Source of the DNA: an uncultured Bacteroidales bacterium
GTDB lineage: Bacteria > Bacteroidota > Bacteroidia > Bacteroidales > Muribaculaceae
DNA: 36,628 nt
Assembly: GCA_902792435.1 (NCBI GenBank)
Contig: CADAZN010000034.1
Location: 1 to 36,628, forward strand
Reading direction: 5' to 3'
Position 1 is the first letter of the stretch. Each line of letters starts with the position of its first letter. Positions 2,274-8,438 of this stretch are shown piece after piece. A program made the translations under genes and the position numbers. The notes below the pieces were generated by a model that had not been told where the DNA came from, did not search any database, and saw only the letters and a program-made list of their open reading frames with translations.

Positions 2274-2309
2274 TATGCCATGATTTGGCATAGGTTTGTT
2301 TTATCTTTG
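2274..2309 (+). promoter_or_regulatory. Palindrome/promoter element 1 (upstream of WYL gene)
   Basis: The perfect inverted repeat TATGCCA-tgatt-TGGCATA (2274-2292) contains the 15-bp core TGCCATGATTTGGCA (2276-2290). Eleven bases after the core is the -7 box TATCTTTG (2302-2309), followed 17 nt later by the WYL ATG. The same core, the same 11-bp spacing and a -7 box recur at 6730, 7338 and 7662. The palindrome centre falls near -33, so it could be an operator (perhaps autoregulatory for the WYL protein) or a specialised upstream promoter element. Function is inference. Confidence 0.75.
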
Positions 2310-2325
2310 CAAAAAACATTGAATT

Positions 2326-3252
2326 ATGAGTTATAGCATTCAACAAAACTTGGTCGGGAAATATGTGTGGCTCATCGAGACCATATACCGGGCCAGGAGG
2401 ATTACATTTAAGGAAATCAACGAGCGGTGGCGCGACAACGTGGAAATGAGTGGCGGAGAGGACATACCCTTGCGCACATTTAACAACTGGCGTTATGCCA
2501 TTCAGGACATGTTCGGATTGTTTATTGAGAACGAGCGATGTGGGAGCTATCGCTACTACATAGAGAATGAGGAGGACATCAGCAACAACGGCCTGCGATC
2601 ATGGATCTACAGCACCTACTGCGTGGGCAACGCACTGGCAGGCTGTCAGGGCATCAAAGACCGCATTCTGCTCGAGTATGTGCCATCGGGCCAGCAGCAC
2701 CTTCAGCCCATCATCGATGCAATGAAGGAAAACCGAGTGCTCAACATCACTTATAAGAGCTTCTGGAGCGAAAAAGAGAGGACTTACAATGTGCAACCAC
2801 TATGCATCAAGCTGTTTCGCCAGCGTTGGTATCTAGTAGTAAGATACGATAAACCCGGCTATTCGCCATGGGTCTGCGCCCTTGACCGCATCTTGTTGTT
2901 GGAGAAGACGGAGGAAACCTTCACGATGCCAAAGGACTGGGATGCTGAAGAGTATTTTGACGGCTTCATTGGTGTTTTGTGCCATAACGATTGCAATAAA
3001 GAAACAGTGAAGATTAAAGTCTCTACTAGTCAAGCTAATTACCTACGCAGCCTTAAGTTGCATGAGTCGCAGGAAGAGGTTGAGCGAAATGAGGATTACA
3101 GTATCTTTACTTACTACCTGCGCCCAACTTACGACTTTATGCAAGAACTGCTTTGGAACGGCGAAGAAGTGGAAGTATTAGAGCCACAATGGCTCCGCGA
3201 TGAGATGAGAGGGAGAATTGAACGGATGCTTGACTTATATAAGGAGGATTAG
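2326..3252 (+). CDS. WYL-domain transcriptional regulator (YafY/CapW-like)
   Basis: This cytosolic DNA-binding regulator has 308 residues. A helix-turn-helix region lies at about residues 20-65 (RITFKEINERW and LRTFNNWRYAIQDMFG). The WYL domain is at about 130-200, with core RVLNITYKSF and the signature strand RWYLVVRY (167-174). A C-terminal WCX-like domain follows at about 225-305 (TYYLRPTYDFMQELLWNGEEV). WYL domains sense ligands, often nucleic-acid fragments, and many control defence or DNA-repair genes (known for the family). It is followed 3 bp later by a DnaQ-like exonuclease, so the two form an operon. The ATG is 17 nt after the -7 box of element 1, giving a very short leader. Its targets are unknown; the four matching palindromes in this window are candidates. 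Confidence 0.92.
   Translation: MSYSIQQNLVGKYVWLIETIYRARRITFKEINERWRDNVEMSGGEDIPLRTFNNWRYAIQDMFGLFIENERCGSYRYYIENEEDISNNGLRSWIYSTYCVGNALAGCQGIKDRILLEYVPSGQQHLQPIIDAMKENRVLNITYKSFWSEKERTYNVQPLCIKLFRQRWYLVVRYDKPGYSPWVCALDRILLLEKTEETFTMPKDWDAEEYFDGFIGVLCHNDCNKETVKIKVSTSQANYLRSLKLHESQEEVERNEDYSIFTYYLRPTYDFMQELLWNGEEVEVLEPQWLRDEMRGRIERMLDLYKED
3241..3247 (+). promoter_or_regulatory. Shine-Dalgarno sequence for the exonuclease
   Basis: AAGGAGG lies 8 nt before the ATG at 3256 and inside the last codons of the WYL gene. Strong Shine-Dalgarno sequences are uncommon in Bacteroidetes, and this one fixes the start of the exonuclease and supports co-translation from the WYL mRNA. Confidence 0.6.
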
Positions 3253-3255
3253 ATA

Positions 3256-3750
3256 ATGCTGGACTTTGCTGCAATAGACTTTGAAACGGCCAACAGCGAG
3301 CGCAGTTCAGTATGTTCGGTGGGGGTAGTAATAGTACGCGGCGGTGAGATTGTTGACTCCTTCTACTCGCTAATCCAGCCCGAACCAAACTATTATAACT
3401 ATTGGTGTTCACAGGTTCACGGACTATGTTGTGACGATACCGACGATGCGCCCATCTTCCCTGAAGTATGGAAACAGATTGAGCCGATGATTGATGGTCT
3501 GCCTCTTGTGGCTCACAACAGCCCATTCGACGAAGGATGCCTGCGTGCCGTCTTTAGATCATACCAGATGGACTACCCCGAGTACATCTTCCTCGACACA
3601 CTGCGTGCCTCGCGTCGTAAACTCCCCCATCTCGACAACCACCAACTCCAAACAGTGGCTGTAGCTCTTGGCTTTGACCTCGTGAACCACCACCATGCTC
3701 TTGCCGATGCTGAAGCTTGCGCCTGGATAGCGAGAGAAATAATTGATTAA
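3256..3750 (+). CDS. 3'-5' exonuclease, DnaQ-like (DEDDh)
   Basis: The protein has 164 residues and is a stand-alone DEDDh exonuclease domain that would remove nucleotides from DNA or RNA 3' ends using two metal ions. All catalytic residues are visible: D8 and E10 in AAIDFETAN, D92 in HNSPFDEGC, and H146 and D151 in HHALADAEA. Its length matches the family of small DnaQ-epsilon-like exonucleases. It sits 3 bp after the WYL regulator stop and shares its promoter. A WYL plus exonuclease pair suggests a DNA-damage or nucleic-acid-processing role, but the in vivo substrate is not known. Confidence 0.93.
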   Translation: MLDFAAIDFETANSERSSVCSVGVVIVRGGEIVDSFYSLIQPEPNYYNYWCSQVHGLCCDDTDDAPIFPEVWKQIEPMIDGLPLVAHNSPFDEGCLRAVFRSYQMDYPEYIFLDTLRASRRKLPHLDNHQLQTVAVALGFDLVNHHHALADAEACAWIAREIID

Positions 3751-3814
3751 ATTTTGTGGTATTGTGTTTTGGGGTGATTCTGGGGAGTTTTTTTATTTTT
3801 TCAATAAAAAGAAT

Positions 3815-3822
3815 TATATTTG
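3815..3822 (+). promoter_or_regulatory. -7 box for the zinc-finger/membrane-protein operon
   Basis: TATATTTG lies 35 nt before the ATG at 3858. It follows an AT-only palindrome (tttttatt-ttttc-aataaaaa, near 3791-3810) and T-runs that may terminate the exonuclease transcript. The palindrome core found in elements 1-4 is absent here, so this is an ordinary promoter. Confidence 0.5.
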
Positions 3823-3857
3823 CAAAGAAATACAACTAATACAAAAAACTATTTAAC

Positions 3858-4109
3858 ATGGAAGATTTTTATTGCAAGTATTGTGGTCAACGATTTGCTT
3901 CAATACGGTCGATGACTGGAATGTGGTGCCATCGGCACCCTGATGGACCAAACAAGGGAAAACATGCGCCTTATGAGGGCAGAGTAAAACAACGCTACAC
4001 TTGCCGTTTTTGTGGCCAACAGTTCACTTCAATAATGTCTATGACTGGAATGTGGTGTCACCGTCACCCTAATGGTCAAAACAAAGGTAAGCACGAACCA
4101 GCATTATAA
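3858..4109 (+). CDS. Small protein of two tandem CxxC...CHxH zinc-finger-like units
   Basis: The 83 residues form two near-identical units offset by 43 residues. Each has CxxC (C6/C9 and C49/C52), then C-H-x-H (C24-H25-R-H27 and C67-H68-R-H70), the shared core SMTGMWCHRHP (18-28 and 61-71) and a trailing NKGKH. The pattern strongly suggests a bound zinc ion per unit and possible nucleic-acid binding, but no known family function is assigned. The DNA is duplicated too: the same 17-bp stretch begins at 3912 and 4041. It is followed 10 bp later by the membrane/coiled-coil gene, so the two are probably co-transcribed. Real coding is supported by the repeat and the upstream promoter. Confidence 0.75.
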   Translation: MEDFYCKYCGQRFASIRSMTGMWCHRHPDGPNKGKHAPYEGRVKQRYTCRFCGQQFTSIMSMTGMWCHRHPNGQNKGKHEPAL

Positions 4110-4119
4110 ATTACACATT

Positions 4120-5502
4120 ATGAAAAAAGACTATTTCTCTTGGATAAAAAAAGACCCTTTTTGGATTATATTATTTTTCATTGTTTTAATTATAACTATC
4201 GTTATCTTTAAAGTTAATGGTAATACATGGGCGACACAAGTCTTTGCAGCATGTTTAGGAGCGATTATCACTGTAATTGTAACTAGGCTACTACTGAGCA
4301 AACAATCAGAAATAGATGAGAAATTAAGAAAAGCTGAATGGGCTGCAGCTGAACAACGAAGAAAACTCGATGAAGATGCTCAAAAAACACTCCGAAAGGC
4401 TGAAGCTGATGCAGAGAGAAAACTGGAGGAATATAAAACTGAATCCGCAAAAGAATTGCGAGAATTAGAGGAAAAATCCAAACGCAATTTTGAGATATAT
4501 AATGCCAAATTAAAGGTCTATTCATCTTTCGTCTCAAAGATGTATAACATCTTACGCGATAATGAGGTTACCAGAGACGAACTTTTGGATTTAAGGACCC
4601 AGATACTTGGACAAGTAAGTTTTTATGCCAATGGAGACATTCTTGCAGGCATTAATGACGAATTAAGTTTAAAAAAAGTCGGTGACTTTCGTGAAAATAT
4701 TGAAAACATACAAAGGTGCTTTGCTAATATAGCATCCTTGTTACAAAAGGATCTACGCGGAAATGAATGGAATGCCGACAGTGGCGGTGCTATTAAGTTA
4801 TGGAACACTTTTGATGGACTCCTTGACAAATTCAATGAAACAACTCAGCAACCAATTGTTAACACATTCTCTGATGACATTGCTTCAAAGTGCTTTAACA
4901 GTACATTTTGGCACTTCAATATGTTAGGTGCAGAAGAGCAGCTTCGTGCTTTAAGCATGGGTGTTTTTGAGTTGAATTTAATTGAATATGACGAGGATTG
5001 GCGTACAGGATTAATAAAGCAGGTTCAAGAAAATGATCTCATTTTCCTTTTCCGGGCTGGTGGACCAGGATATATGGGTGTCTATCGTGCTAAAGGTTGG
5101 AAAATATTCCAGTTCAACAAAGAAGATGGCAGTACAATAGAAACACTAAATATATTTGGTGCAACAAAACAAGTAATAAATAACCCAAGCGATGACGAAA
5201 TCAACAAGAGTGACATTTATGAATCCAAGGAAGACGGTGCTACACTTTGTTCAAGTCTTATTGTTGAGCCATTGGCATTTGCACGCACTGGTGTTGGCAA
5301 TCTCGGTGGAGTGTATCGTCGCACTATTTCTCGTTATGACAGAGGTTACGGACTCATGCATTTAGGATGTTTTATGGCAATTATGGATAATGAAGACATC
5401 TATAACACATACCTCGAAGATGGTAAAAAGCACACGATGGGGTGCAATAAAGAATTGTTCAAAAGAATTCTTGCTGTAGGTAATATTGAAAAAGCAACAT
5501 AA
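4120..5502 (+). CDS. Membrane-anchored coiled-coil protein of unknown function
   Basis: The protein has 460 residues. Two transmembrane helices (about 14-30 and 38-59) form an N-terminal hairpin. A long charged heptad-rich coiled coil follows (about 62-128, rich in A, E, K and R), then a helical region (about 130-260), and a mixed C-terminal domain containing IFLFRAGGPGYMGVY and GWKIFQF (about 305-340). I do not recognise the C-terminal domain. The open frame extends 16 codons upstream into the zinc-finger gene, but ATG 4120 immediately precedes the first TM helix (MKKDYFSWIKKDPFW) and is preferred. The architecture of membrane hairpin plus coiled coil plus soluble domain fits a sensor or scaffold at the inner membrane, as seen in some phage-defence proteins, but that is inference. 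It is AT-rich compared with the flanking surface genes. Confidence 0.8.
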   Translation: MKKDYFSWIKKDPFWIILFFIVLIITIVIFKVNGNTWATQVFAACLGAIITVIVTRLLLSKQSEIDEKLRKAEWAAAEQRRKLDEDAQKTLRKAEADAERKLEEYKTESAKELRELEEKSKRNFEIYNAKLKVYSSFVSKMYNILRDNEVTRDELLDLRTQILGQVSFYANGDILAGINDELSLKKVGDFRENIENIQRCFANIASLLQKDLRGNEWNADSGGAIKLWNTFDGLLDKFNETTQQPIVNTFSDDIASKCFNSTFWHFNMLGAEEQLRALSMGVFELNLIEYDEDWRTGLIKQVQENDLIFLFRAGGPGYMGVYRAKGWKIFQFNKEDGSTIETLNIFGATKQVINNPSDDEINKSDIYESKEDGATLCSSLIVEPLAFARTGVGNLGGVYRRTISRYDRGYGLMHLGCFMAIMDNEDIYNTYLEDGKKHTMGCNKELFKRILAVGNIEKAT

Positions 5503-5535
5503 AGTTAATCAAATAATTCAACAGATCTTAGCATC

Positions 5536-5718
5536 ATGGGAACAAACAAAAAAATAGATACACTTATTCATTTCGTAAACTGGGTGAATAATTCCCAAAA
5601 AGATATTTTAAAAATCGGCAGAAGGCTCGAAAACGTTTTTGACGATGACTTAGAATCTGGCAATTTCGAAATATCAGAATTAATAAACAACATCAGTGAG
5701 TTCTCTAAAAATATATGA
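5536..5718 (+). CDS. Small hypothetical protein (60 aa)
   Basis: This short helical, acidic protein has no recognised family. It begins 33 bp after the membrane protein, and its stop codon overlaps the next ATG as ATGA (5715-5718), a typical coupled-operon arrangement. The coupling to a nuclease stump suggests it was once the upstream partner of a full nuclease gene, perhaps an accessory or immunity protein; that is inference. Confidence 0.5.
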   Translation: MGTNKKIDTLIHFVNWVNNSQKDILKIGRRLENVFDDDLESGNFEISELINNISEFSKNI

Positions 5719-5882
5719 TAGATTTACTTATGAAAAATATAGAGTCTATATTGAAACAAATCTCAGCTATTGTTGAAAGAGAAAAAATTCAACAAGAAGA
5801 GAAACGCAAACGAGGTGAAAACTTCAACATATTTAGTGTGCTAGGACTCTCAACAAGTGAAGTCAGGCTTCATTCCGCCTAA
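5715..5882 (+). pseudogene. N-terminal stump of a PD-(D/E)XK (PDDEXK_4-like) nuclease
   Basis: The 55-residue frame contains GENFNIFSVLGLSTSEVRLH followed by SA and a stop. This matches the N-terminal signature of PDDEXK_4-type nucleases (GENFNIF...LGL...EVR.HS), after which full members continue with a FLA-LL-P helix and several hundred residues carrying the catalytic site. Here the reading frame stops exactly after HSA, with none of the nuclease core present. The ATG overlaps the 60-aa gene stop (ATGA). A hairpin begins right at the stop codon. The family call rests on remembered consensus, not a search; most likely a deletion remnant, less likely a functional micro-protein. Confidence 0.6.
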
Positions 5883-5924
5883 AACCCGCTGAAATTATTT
5901 TAAGCTGAATTTCAGGCAGTTTTA
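5880..5924 (+). terminator. Hairpin after the nuclease stump
   Basis: The arms CTGAAATT (5889-5896) and AATTTCAG (5908-5915) pair perfectly. Outer arms TAAAAC (5880-5885) and GTTTTA (5919-5924) also pair across a 3x3 internal loop. A short T-rich stretch follows. It begins at the stop codon of the truncated nuclease frame and precedes the next promoter, so it is probably the operon terminator. Confidence 0.5.
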
Positions 5925-5956
5925 TTTGAAGACTTCAAAAACGTGACTTAAATTTG
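5925..5956 (+). promoter_or_regulatory. Canonical Bacteroidetes promoter of the UDG-like gene
   Basis: TTTG (5925-5928) is followed by 20 bp and then TAAATTTG (5949-5956), matching the classical -33/-7 arrangement. The gene starts 37 nt downstream. This canonical spacing contrasts with the palindrome elements, where TTTG sits only 14 bp from the -7 box. Confidence 0.6.
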
Positions 5957-5992
5957 TAAACGAAATAAGACAATAATCAAGAAAAAAATATT

Positions 5993-6691
5993 ATGACTGC
6001 AGAGAAACTACAATTATCACAAGAGAAAATTATTGAGAAAATTTATTCATTCGCAAAAGAGAACAAACTCTCAAACGACAATGTAGAACCAATCCCTGAT
6101 GGGGTTTATAGCGCAGAGCTATATTTATCTGCCCCATCACAAATTATGTGGATTCTCAAAGAACCCTATGATGACTTTAATGAAAAAGGAGAACCATATG
6201 GAGGTGGTTGGAATTTATTCAGTGCTTTTGATAATGATAATGCATGGAGTTCTCCAACCTGGCAACCAATAATTTATTCCATGTATGGGTTATTCTACAA
6301 CCAAAAATGGGATAAAATGGACGAAATTTGCAATAATAAAAAAATGGCAGATGTATTAAAACAGATTGCTTATATTAACATTAGTAAAATGCCTGCGTCA
6401 ACTACTACCAATGATAATTCGCTTTATGAAAAGTATGAACTTTGGAAGGAAATATTAATGGAGCAAATAGCTATATATGCACCAAAGATAATCATTTTTG
6501 GCAGGACCTTTGAATATTTTAAGACTGACTTGGTTGGATATGACGCAGTACCACTATCGTCAGTTGAAGGCGTTATAAATATTTATGAGAAAAATGGTGT
6601 GTATTATCTGGACGCATATCACCCAAATCAAAAAAAGTTTTCAAGAGGAATCTATGTAAACACCATAATTGAATCTTGTTTACTTAAATAA
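5993..6691 (+). CDS. Uracil-DNA-glycosylase-fold-like protein
   Basis: The protein has 232 residues. Its layout resembles the UDG superfamily: a first motif IMWILKEPYDDF (51-62), a middle strand AYINISKMPAS (126-136), a central strand APKIIIFGRTFEYF (163-176) and a C-terminal motif YLDAYHPNQ (205-213), comparable to the HPS-type loop of UDGs. If correct it would bind or cleave damaged or modified bases. The catalytic motifs diverge from well-studied UDG families, so enzymatic activity is uncertain. It has its own canonical promoter and ends just before palindrome element 2, whose hairpin plus T-run probably terminates it. Very AT-rich. The fold assignment is inference from motif spacing. Confidence 0.55.
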   Translation: MTAEKLQLSQEKIIEKIYSFAKENKLSNDNVEPIPDGVYSAELYLSAPSQIMWILKEPYDDFNEKGEPYGGGWNLFSAFDNDNAWSSPTWQPIIYSMYGLFYNQKWDKMDEICNNKKMADVLKQIAYINISKMPASTTTNDNSLYEKYELWKEILMEQIAIYAPKIIIFGRTFEYFKTDLVGYDAVPLSSVEGVINIYEKNGVYYLDAYHPNQKKFSRGIYVNTIIESCLLK

Positions 6692-6722
6692 TCAATTATT
6701 TAGTTTACAAAAACTTTTATAT

Positions 6723-6763
6723 GGAGCTGTGCCTCAATTTGGCATAGCTCCTTTTTAATTTTG
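6723..6763 (+). promoter_or_regulatory. Palindrome/promoter element 2 (terminator plus promoter of the HAD gene)
   Basis: Arms GGAGCTGTGCC (6723-6733) and GGCATAGCTCC (6741-6751) pair with a single G-T wobble, and T5 follows, so the hairpin is also a plausible terminator for the upstream gene. The 15-bp core TGCCTCAATTTGGCA (6730-6744) is followed by 11 bp and then the -7 box TAATTTTG (6756-6763). The HAD ATG is 16 nt further. Same geometry as elements 1, 3 and 4. Confidence 0.75.
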
Positions 6764-6778
6764 CTCAAAACTATCTCT

Positions 6779-7291
6779 ATGACAAAATATATCTTTCTCG
6801 ATTTTGATGGGGTATTGAATACGGAGTTTTATCAAAATCTGCTTATATCGCAAGGAAAACCTTGGGGAGATGAAAATGGAGCTTTCTTTGACCCAGAGGC
6901 TGTGATGCAGCTTAAGCGTATTGTTGACGCCACTTGTGCAGACATTGTCATTGAATCCTCATGGAAATATCTTGGATTAAAGGCTTTAAGGGATATGTGG
7001 GCAGCACGCCGATTGCCTGGACGTTTAATCGATATCACTCCGTTTACAGCCAGTGACAGCTGGCTATTGACTGCCGAACCGAATGACATTGACATCGAAA
7101 TGGGACATTGCAAAGGAATAGAAATCGCATCATGGCTTTTGGACCACGCAACAGCAGAAGCCCGATACGTTATCATTGATGACGAGTATGTGATACTAGA
7201 CTCTCAGTTGCCTCAATTTATTTTAACCAATCCTTATGATGGAATAACTAAAGAAATTGCCGATAGAGCTATCGGAATGCTAAATGAGTAA
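6779..7291 (+). CDS. HAD-superfamily phosphatase-like protein
   Basis: The protein has 170 residues. The HAD nucleophile motif DFDGVLN (8-14, D8 and D10) opens it, motif II is probably in ESSWKYLG (59-66), and the distal acidic motif VIIDDE (131-136) closes the active site. The arrangement matches the small HAD domains of the Swiss-army-knife RNA-repair type (HAD_SAK-like) rather than large phosphatases; that subfamily assignment is from memory. It would hydrolyse a phosphate ester, possibly on nucleic-acid ends. A TTG-initiated extension to 6761 is rejected because that codon lies inside the -7 box; the ATG at 6779 gives a leader of about 10 nt. Single-gene unit between palindrome elements 2 and 3. 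Confidence 0.82.
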   Translation: MTKYIFLDFDGVLNTEFYQNLLISQGKPWGDENGAFFDPEAVMQLKRIVDATCADIVIESSWKYLGLKALRDMWAARRLPGRLIDITPFTASDSWLLTAEPNDIDIEMGHCKGIEIASWLLDHATAEARYVIIDDEYVILDSQLPQFILTNPYDGITKEIADRAIGMLNE

Positions 7292-7332
7292 ATTTTTGGA
7301 AACTTTTTTTCAAAAAAATGCCTCATCGTCAA

Positions 7333-7371
7333 ACCTCTGCCACCATTTGGCAGAGGTCGTTGTTTTCTTTG
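7333..7371 (+). promoter_or_regulatory. Palindrome/promoter element 3
   Basis: Arms ACCTCTGCCA (7333-7342) and TGGCAGAGGT (7348-7357) pair perfectly around a 5-nt loop. The core TGCCACCATTTGGCA (7338-7352) is followed by 11 bp and then TTTCTTTG (7364-7371), a -7 box with one departure from TAnnTTTG. The small ORF at 7396 starts 25 nt later. Confidence 0.7.
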
Positions 7372-7395
7372 CACTGTGATTAACGATTAAAAACA

Positions 7396-7572
7396 ATGAC
7401 AATGGAAGAAGACTTAATTTTGTTTGTGGTTCCCGAACGTGGAATACCAATAGAGTTCCCCTTAAGTTATTTACTGAATGAGAACTTCGCATTTCATGAA
7501 AACAAAGAAGAAAATGTAAAAGATTTGAACGAACTCATTCAAGCAATAGCTGAATATCGGGACAACCTCTAA
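7396..7572 (+). CDS. Small acidic hypothetical protein (58 aa)
   Basis: ATG 7396 lies 25 nt after the -7 box of element 3 and opens a 58-residue acidic frame (begins MTMEEDLILFVVPERG, contains FPLSYLLNENFAFHE, ends at TAA 7570-7572). It resembles no family I know. Its support is its position exactly where the other three elements place their genes, and its protein-like composition. The stop codon abuts a 56-bp remnant of another gene's 3' end. Confidence 0.55.
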   Translation: MTMEEDLILFVVPERGIPIEFPLSYLLNENFAFHENKEENVKDLNELIQAIAEYRDNL

Positions 7573-7628
7573 ATTACAAGAAGGCGTGCATGAGCGTAGG
7601 GGATTTCACCTACGAAGCTCTCGACTGA
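7573..7628 (+). pseudogene. 3'-end remnant of a small gene; near-copy of 8383-8438
   Basis: These 56 bp match 8383-8438 at 52 positions. In the frame of the downstream copy both encode the same C-terminal tail (YKKACMSVGDFTYEALD then stop). All four differences are third-codon-position and silent (Val, Ala, Leu, Asp codons). There is no 5' part here: the fragment begins directly after the stop of the 58-aa gene, in another frame. It is most likely the surviving end of a deleted relative of the downstream gene. Confidence 0.75.
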
Positions 7629-7651
7629 TTTTTTAAAAAAAACATCACTTT

Positions 7652-7695
7652 GACGCACCTATGCCTCCATTTGGCACAGGTGCGTCTTATCTTTG
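7652..7695 (+). promoter_or_regulatory. Palindrome/promoter element 4
   Basis: Fourteen-base arms GACGCACCTATGCC (7652-7665) and GGCACAGGTGCGTC (7673-7686) pair with one mismatch, the longest stem of the four. The core TGCCTCCATTTGGCA (7662-7676) is followed by 11 bp and then TATCTTTG (7688-7695), and the gene ATG follows 22 nt later. Confidence 0.75.
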
Positions 7696-8209: not shown

Positions 8210-8438
8210 ATGTTTTACTATTATTTATTTCAGAATTACACCCAAGCGCACAAGGCGCGTCAATGGGCAAGTAATCACGCCCGAAATGGTGATTACCGTC
8301 ACTACTCGTCAGCACTGCACCAACCCGTTCTACAACGGAGCAGTCGAAGTTAAGGAACAGTACATGCGCATGTATAACTTCGATTACAAGAAGGCGTGCA
8401 TGAGCGTCGGGGATTTCACCTACGAAGCCCTTGATTGA
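8210..8438 (+). pseudogene. Small gene with probable 1-nt frameshift
   Basis: From ATG 8210 one frame reads MFYYYLF, then runs into protein-unlike sequence. The neighbouring frame, from about 8232 to the TGA at 8436-8438, is open and protein-like (RITPKRTRRVNGQ, then PEMVITVTTRQHCTN, FYNGAVEVKEQYMRMY and a tail ending FTYEALD). Removing one base near 8231 would join them into a protein of about 75 residues. That the second frame is real is supported by the silent-only differences between its 3' end and the remnant at 7573-7628. Alternatives are a sequencing error, a non-ATG start or programmed frameshifting. Family unknown. Confidence 0.6.

Follow-up and report, generated by a model that had tools for sequence, protein, structure and literature searches.

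A fixed-geometry palindromic promoter element of Bacteroidales, linked to WYL regulator genes and probably activated by their products

Among the described WYL-family regulators, DriD of Caulobacter crescentus is presented in PMC12340889 as a damage-responsive activator that binds ATACGAC-N7-GTCGTAT over the -35 region of promoters with a poor -35 box, at a constant distance from the -10 box, and sandwiches sigma domain 4. PafBC of mycobacteria, likewise an activator of DNA-damage genes, is described in PMC11804915 as acting from a positioned motif and inserting between the promoter and sigma domain 4, thereby replacing the sigma contact at -35. WYL regulators of the BrxR family are placed by PMC9122601 in accessory islands, with inverted repeats near a promoter that they repress, and in the same phylum as the DNA studied here, non-canonical LexA proteins of Bacteroidetes are reported to use palindromic operators at recA and other damage genes (PMC8565304). 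That 2021 survey reports both Bacteroidetes SOS regulator groups as absent from Bacteroidales, and a 2010 study gives an SOS-like response in B. fragilis as not yet known (PMC3025348). Here, we analyze a composite promoter element, a TGCC-N7-GGCA dyad placed 11 bp before a -7 box, which occurs four times in a 36,628-nucleotide stretch of an uncultured Bacteroidales bacterium of the Muribaculaceae (contig CADAZN010000034.1; hereafter, the window) and heads, among others, a WYL regulator gene. Our reading, which we consider probable though well short of certain, is that these elements are WYL-activated promoters of one-gene cassettes arranged around an often self-controlled WYL gene. In the open-access literature, we found no paper joining Bacteroidales, WYL domain, DNA damage and transcriptional regulator, and none joining Bacteroides, promoter TTTG and WYL; broader searches returned no title on this system among the matches listed.

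Bacteroidales promoters follow the consensus TTTG-N19-21-TAnnTTTG. A first-pass annotation of the window had pointed to four TGCC dyad cores, each 11 bp before a -7 box of the form TWNNTTTG, and these are present as follows:

2274..2309, + strand: element 1, dyad TATGCC-N7-GGCATA with core TGCCATGATTTGGCA (2276-2290) and -7 box TATCTTTG (2302-2309), heading the WYL gene
6723..6763, + strand: element 2, core TGCCTCAATTTGGCA (6730-6744) within an 11-bp stem (6723-6751), -7 box TAATTTTG (6756-6763)
7333..7371, + strand: element 3, dyad ACCTCTGCC-N7-GGCAGAGGT with core TGCCACCATTTGGCA (7338-7352), -7 box TTTCTTTG (7364-7371)
7652..7695, + strand: element 4, the longest dyad, with arms 7652-7660 and 7678-7686, core TGCCTCCATTTGGCA (7662-7676) and -7 box TATCTTTG (7688-7695)

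Read from the sequence, the gap between core and -7 box is exactly 11 bp in all four, and the dyad is centred 19 bp before the -7 box begins. The dyad thereby occupies the position of the -33 box: at 19-21-bp spacers, TTTG would fall on core bases including the CC, so that the element excludes a -33 box. In contrast, the window gene at 5993 is preceded by an ordinary TTTG-N20-TAAATTTG promoter (by eye). The start codons follow the -7 boxes after 16, 15, 24, and 21 nt for elements 1 to 4, close to the 16-25 nt given earlier, and element 1 is an inverted repeat near the promoter of the WYL gene, 16 bp before its start codon; a copy of it also precedes the orthologous WYL gene in three other genomes (G025, G065, G075). 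The pattern TGCC-N6-TGGCA has six strand matches in the window, all at the four element sites, versus 0.46 expected from shuffles, and TGCC-N3-ATTTGGCA occurs five times in the genome, four of them within the window elements.

This arrangement, a dyad with a 7-bp gap over the -35/-33 region at a constant distance from the -10/-7 box, is the geometry of DriD sites, whereas the letters differ: the half-sites are TGCC/GGCA here and ATACGAC in DriD (PMC12340889), whose recognition sequence the elements lack. Relative to what that report describes, the present system further differs in its Bacteroidales -7 box code, in the recA and defence genes behind the element, in its island cassette arrays and in its paralogous WYL genes. 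PafBC, as described in PMC11804915, differs in being a heterodimer with a -26 motif, and the similarity of the window protein to it is marginal (E 0.019 at best).

To establish the distribution of the element, we searched 101 genomes of the genus with TGCC-N7-GGCA-N11-TNNNTTTG, using the same pattern read backwards as a control; many of the genomes analysed are incomplete. The composite was recovered 188 times in 78 of the 101 genomes, well above the four control matches (in three genomes). In a scan of named genomes, an off-register 14-bp core pattern (N6 in place of N7), at most a control, gave six matches, versus about 7.5 expected by our own estimate. With the spacer left free from 1 to 30 bp, 71 of the 150 matches listed had a spacing of 11, followed by spacings of 7 (11 matches) and 29 (10 matches), with one to six matches at each of the others; the rigidity proposed from the four window copies thus extends beyond them. 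The smaller peak at spacing 7 (11 of the 150 matches listed) includes some orthologous-looking pairs and may perhaps belong to another regulator. Across 21 island stretches, the box stood at 11 bp in 39 of 49 distinct cores and at no other spacing more than five times, a count biased by the choice of many of these stretches for holding the element. What had been described as a conserved 15-bp core holds as TGCC-N7-GGCA, while its central ATTT is not constant outside the window. In other genomes of the order the composite is rare, with 25 matches in 18 of 294 genomes against four control matches. A viral promoter was also considered as its source; two scans of a viral collection gave three and one matches (without a computed chance expectation) and hence no sign of a viral promoter.

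The second line of evidence concerns the genomic association of the element with WYL genes. Among 154 elements (the 150 genus matches listed plus the four in the window), 40 (from 19 contigs) have one of the listed WYL genes no more than 10 kb away, against about 1.4% expected from the number of WYL genes listed. Within the free-spacer matches listed, the proportion was 11 of 71 at spacing 11 and 4 of 79 for the remaining spacings; these four include one match that is a true element read in reverse. As elements of one island are not independent, the comparison across families weighs more: when the surroundings of the matches in all 18 other genomes of the order were read, seven genomes from six families had a WYL gene beside or near the element. 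It is directly adjacent in six of them, from five other families (G181, G285, G141, G220, G273, and G160, the last encoding a distant relative with E 1e-33), and 7.4 kb away in G390. Within the genus, the WYL gene is itself headed by an element in 12 islands, allowing one mismatch, and islands fetched for their WYL gene contained an element in 8 of 12 cases, with eight further islands having been chosen for holding elements. Across 23 island stretches, the true half-sites gave 37 exact matches and a further 25 with one mismatch, compared with none for four other half-site pairs in the same stretches. The earlier suggestions of a regulon operator and of a protein bound near -33 gain support from the rigid spacing, the counts above control and this linkage, which, within the genus and across families, also points to the window WYL protein as the candidate binder.

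We next consider the genes behind the element, classified as the first open frame downstream of each of 82 distinct elements collected with their surroundings. The commonest, in 23 cases (L010, L040, L134, and 20 other loci), is a family of 82-106-aa proteins, which is also the commonest gene behind elements outside islands; one member, tested against Pfam and NCBIfam, had no match, and the similarity in size to the small SOS division inhibitors is only a guess at its role. The other first frames encode an AAA_21 ATPase (5), an AAA+ ATPase (5), RecA (4), an HAD protein (3), a WYL protein (3), a KaiC/DnaB-like ATPase below the Pfam cut-off (3) and a Cas3-like helicase with an HD domain (2), with the remainder in smaller groups or single cases. 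The single cases include a GmrSD-type protein 32 nt downstream, as well as an Mrr nuclease (224 nt) and an N6 methylase (262 nt), for which an operon link to the element is less sure. Further cassettes in the islands carry genes for relatives of Pol III alpha (758 and 762 aa, as well as a fragment with the finger domain), for an FtsZ GTPase domain of 200 aa and for an FtsK relative that is truncated where its stretch ends. A recA gene lies 43-678 bp downstream of 12 of the 154 elements (again among the matches listed and the window four), in one case with an intervening AhpC/TSA-family gene, here called bcp. Two recA genes (approximately 85% and 77% identical to the query) are present in many of the genus genomes, and elements occur upstream of members of both groups.

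A second dyad, of nearly the same geometry, was found in another recA context. In 19 genomes, recA lies 587-787 bp after a WYL gene, and in ten such loci read by eye, a bcp-like start falls between the two. In most of the ten, the intervening promoter has ATGGGYA-N7-TRCCCAT or a degenerate version of it, with its centre 20 bp from the -7 box; the copy in the window's own genome is degenerate. A search with GGGNA-N7-TNCCC-N11-TANNTTTG gave 11 matches in 9 of the 101 genus genomes versus one in the control, eight of them between the WYL gene and recA; one of the three in G088 lies 616 bp before recA. The WYL protein upstream of recA has Pfam WYL and WCX domains above cut-off. In the recognition-helix region, the WYL proteins of these loci mostly read RRSFYNYR; where core genes have TGCC dyads instead, the counterpart proteins show RRTFFHYR and other forms, and island WYL proteins RTFNNW, RTFKRW and others, the helix being placed by eye throughout. 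Operator letters thus seem, from these comparisons, to have drifted while the geometry was kept.

On the model of DriD and PafBC, we propose that each element would be a promoter in which the -33 box has been traded for an operator of a WYL-family protein. A WYL dimer on the TGCC-N7-GGCA dyad would hold the sigma-carrying RNA polymerase at the promoter without the TTTG contact, and the spacing would be rigid because the bound dimer must do so; rigid spacing together with the absent -33 box favours activation. In the window genome, the four promoters would form a local, self-controlled regulon of the adjacent WYL gene, consisting of small units with one switch each. Relatives probably use this geometry too, with different WYL proteins controlling recA, defence-type genes and additional cassettes. 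The promoters are probably damage- or phage-responsive, the WYL domain most likely sensing DNA damage or phage attack, as it senses single-stranded DNA in DriD and PafBC. A WYL-linked operator of fixed geometry at recA and defence-type genes is a concrete, testable candidate for a Bacteroidales DNA-damage response. If correct, this candidate would carry the DriD/PafBC principle into a phylum whose promoter code differs, imply that the operator sequence drifts while the geometry stays, and provide a DNA signature for finding more damage-response, defence or checkpoint genes.

Several observations weigh against this proposal. Core-gene elements, such as those of recA, are not adjacent to a WYL gene, which makes their regulator less certain. 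Among genomes of other families in the order, 25 bcp-recA promoters compared by eye, without statistics, had no such common dyad, so an element at recA throughout the order was rejected; likewise, no WYL gene was found in the approximately 4 kb upstream of recA in 40 neighborhoods fetched from the 144 order genomes with a recA match. The recA link is accordingly a feature of this genus. No WYL gene stood near the match in 11 of the 18 order genomes read, and some of these order-wide matches probably arose by chance. Four of the 12 islands fetched for a WYL gene had no element (L443, L447, L452, and L453, of which L447 and L452 are short). The solved sequences nearest to the window regulator are WYL proteins including 8tp8, identified as DriD in PMC11804915, and the match is confined to the WYL/WCX half (residues 128-295 only).

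The principal alternative keeps the WYL protein but reverses its action, making it a repressor of the BrxR/CapW type that sits on the promoter and leaves upon induction. BrxR and similar regulators of defence islands do bind inverted repeats and repress (PMC9122601), and a gene headed by its own operator, as the WYL gene often is here, is common for repressors. However, the R-BOX1 repeats of BrxR, as given in that source, have a 5-bp gap and lie downstream of the predicted promoter, whereas the gap here is 7 bp and the dyad stands in for the -33 box at a single spacing in every case. Such rigidity would not be needed for repression, and these promoters have no other -33 contact. Repression is therefore unlikely in our estimate, if still to be taken seriously. 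Somewhat less probable again is that the dyad belongs to another regulator (an S24/LexA-like phage-type repressor, for example, or a sigma factor of an unusual kind) and that the WYL genes only share its islands. An SOS repressor would be in keeping with recA and defence-type genes as the downstream genes, and the core-gene elements do not stand next to WYL genes. Against this reading, WYL genes are adjacent to the element in six genomes of five other families, and the reported Bacteroidetes SOS regulators, described in PMC8565304 as S24-type repressors and reported there as missing from Bacteroidales, use the N5 dyads GGA-N5-TCC or CTAA-N5-TTAG, neither of which occurs in the four window elements, all of the TGCC-N7-GGCA form.

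Two further alternatives locate the function in the palindrome as a structure. RNA hairpins at elements 1 to 4 are stable (z-scores of -2.0, -5.8, -4.2, and -6.4), and a simple rule (a G+C-rich stem with a T run directly after it) scores as terminator-like three of the four window elements, element 2 most so, and 19 of 28 island elements, which is what a terminator or insulator hairpin ahead of an ordinary promoter would give. Only 17 of the 54 other elements score in this way, so termination cannot explain the fixed promoter geometry; moreover, the core letters are constant, although pairing alone would suffice, and the distance to the -7 box is fixed. We regard this explanation as highly improbable; the earlier terminator/insulator suggestion gains partial support. 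The first-pass annotation had also read the arms as differing in sequence yet self-complementary, and hence as selected for hairpin formation. The complementarity is present, but it is mostly an extended dyad, with island arms approximating ~CACCTC-TGCC-N7-GGC[AGC]-GAGGTG (by eye) and not varying freely as stems. Beyond the shared dyad, arm pairing in 31 non-redundant island elements is modestly in excess (4.16 versus 3.58 of 9 shuffled, p 0.0046), mainly at arm positions 1, 7, and 9, which lends weak support to hairpin selection; the value for all 82 elements (3.61 versus 2.70 of 9 shuffled, the largest of 2000 shuffles being 3.15) comes from two classes taken together and is not counted as support for covariation.

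The element could instead be primarily a recombination site joining cassettes, with the promoter carried along. Near-identical elements do stand before different gene families: the type of element 3 heads the 58-aa gene here and in L119, a repeat-protein gene in L129, and a short AAA+-like frame in L428. On this evidence, cassettes appear to reassort, which suggests recombination at the elements, no enzyme being implied, and to this extent the earlier idea of cassette joining gains partial support. As a primary function it is the least probable of the explanations considered, because chromosomal genes such as recA can also have a single element in front of them, all spacing-11 matches listed keep the promoter register, and a Pfam scan of ten window proteins found no integrase or recombinase domain, wider neighborhoods and attC sites lying outside this search. 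The L428 locus (G075:C23), with six elements in 8.2 kb, three of them with core TGCCACCATTTGGCA, is an expanded version of the window array.

Returning to WYL-dependent activation, a broader and distinctly tentative extension would be an SOS-like response of Bacteroidales run by WYL activators, with exchangeable one-gene cassette arrays attached to accessory WYL genes. These arrays would serve as an arsenal, inducible and recombining, for stopping division and replication when the cell suffers damage or phage attack; in relatives, several cassettes hold copies of the cell's division and replication machinery, namely the lone FtsZ GTPase domain, the 758-aa Pol III alpha relative, the FtsK relative and the KaiC/DnaB-like ATPase noted above.

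The genes of the four window units are as follows:

2326..3252, + strand: regulator of 308 aa with WYL (Pfam 41.5 bits) and WCX (50.7 bits) domains, candidate binder of all four elements
3256..3750, + strand: DnaQ-like 3'-5' exonuclease (Pfam RNase_T, 76.3 bits), beginning 3 nt past the WYL stop codon
6779..7291, + strand: HAD-superfamily protein of 170 aa (Pfam HAD_SAK_2, 81.1 bits), first gene of unit 2
7396..7572, + strand: 58-aa protein of unit 3, without a Pfam match, kept behind the same element in L119
7717..8181, + strand: repeat-containing protein of 154 aa, unit 4, with weak matches only and homologues behind elements in L119 and L129

The exonuclease gene is probably cotranscribed with the WYL gene, and a single-sequence AlphaFold model of the WYL protein has a mean pLDDT of 38. 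The gene at 5993-6691, with the ordinary promoter mentioned above, encodes a 232-aa protein that has no Pfam, NCBIfam or PADLOC match and by eye resembles uracil-DNA glycosylases. The end of a DUF6140 gene (DYKKACMSVGDFTYEALD) occurs twice in the window, as a remnant at 7574-7629 directly after the 58-aa gene and in a 50-aa frame at 8286-8438 after unit 4; since complete DUF6140 genes follow elements in L128, L131, and L454, these ends look like the scars of lost cassettes.

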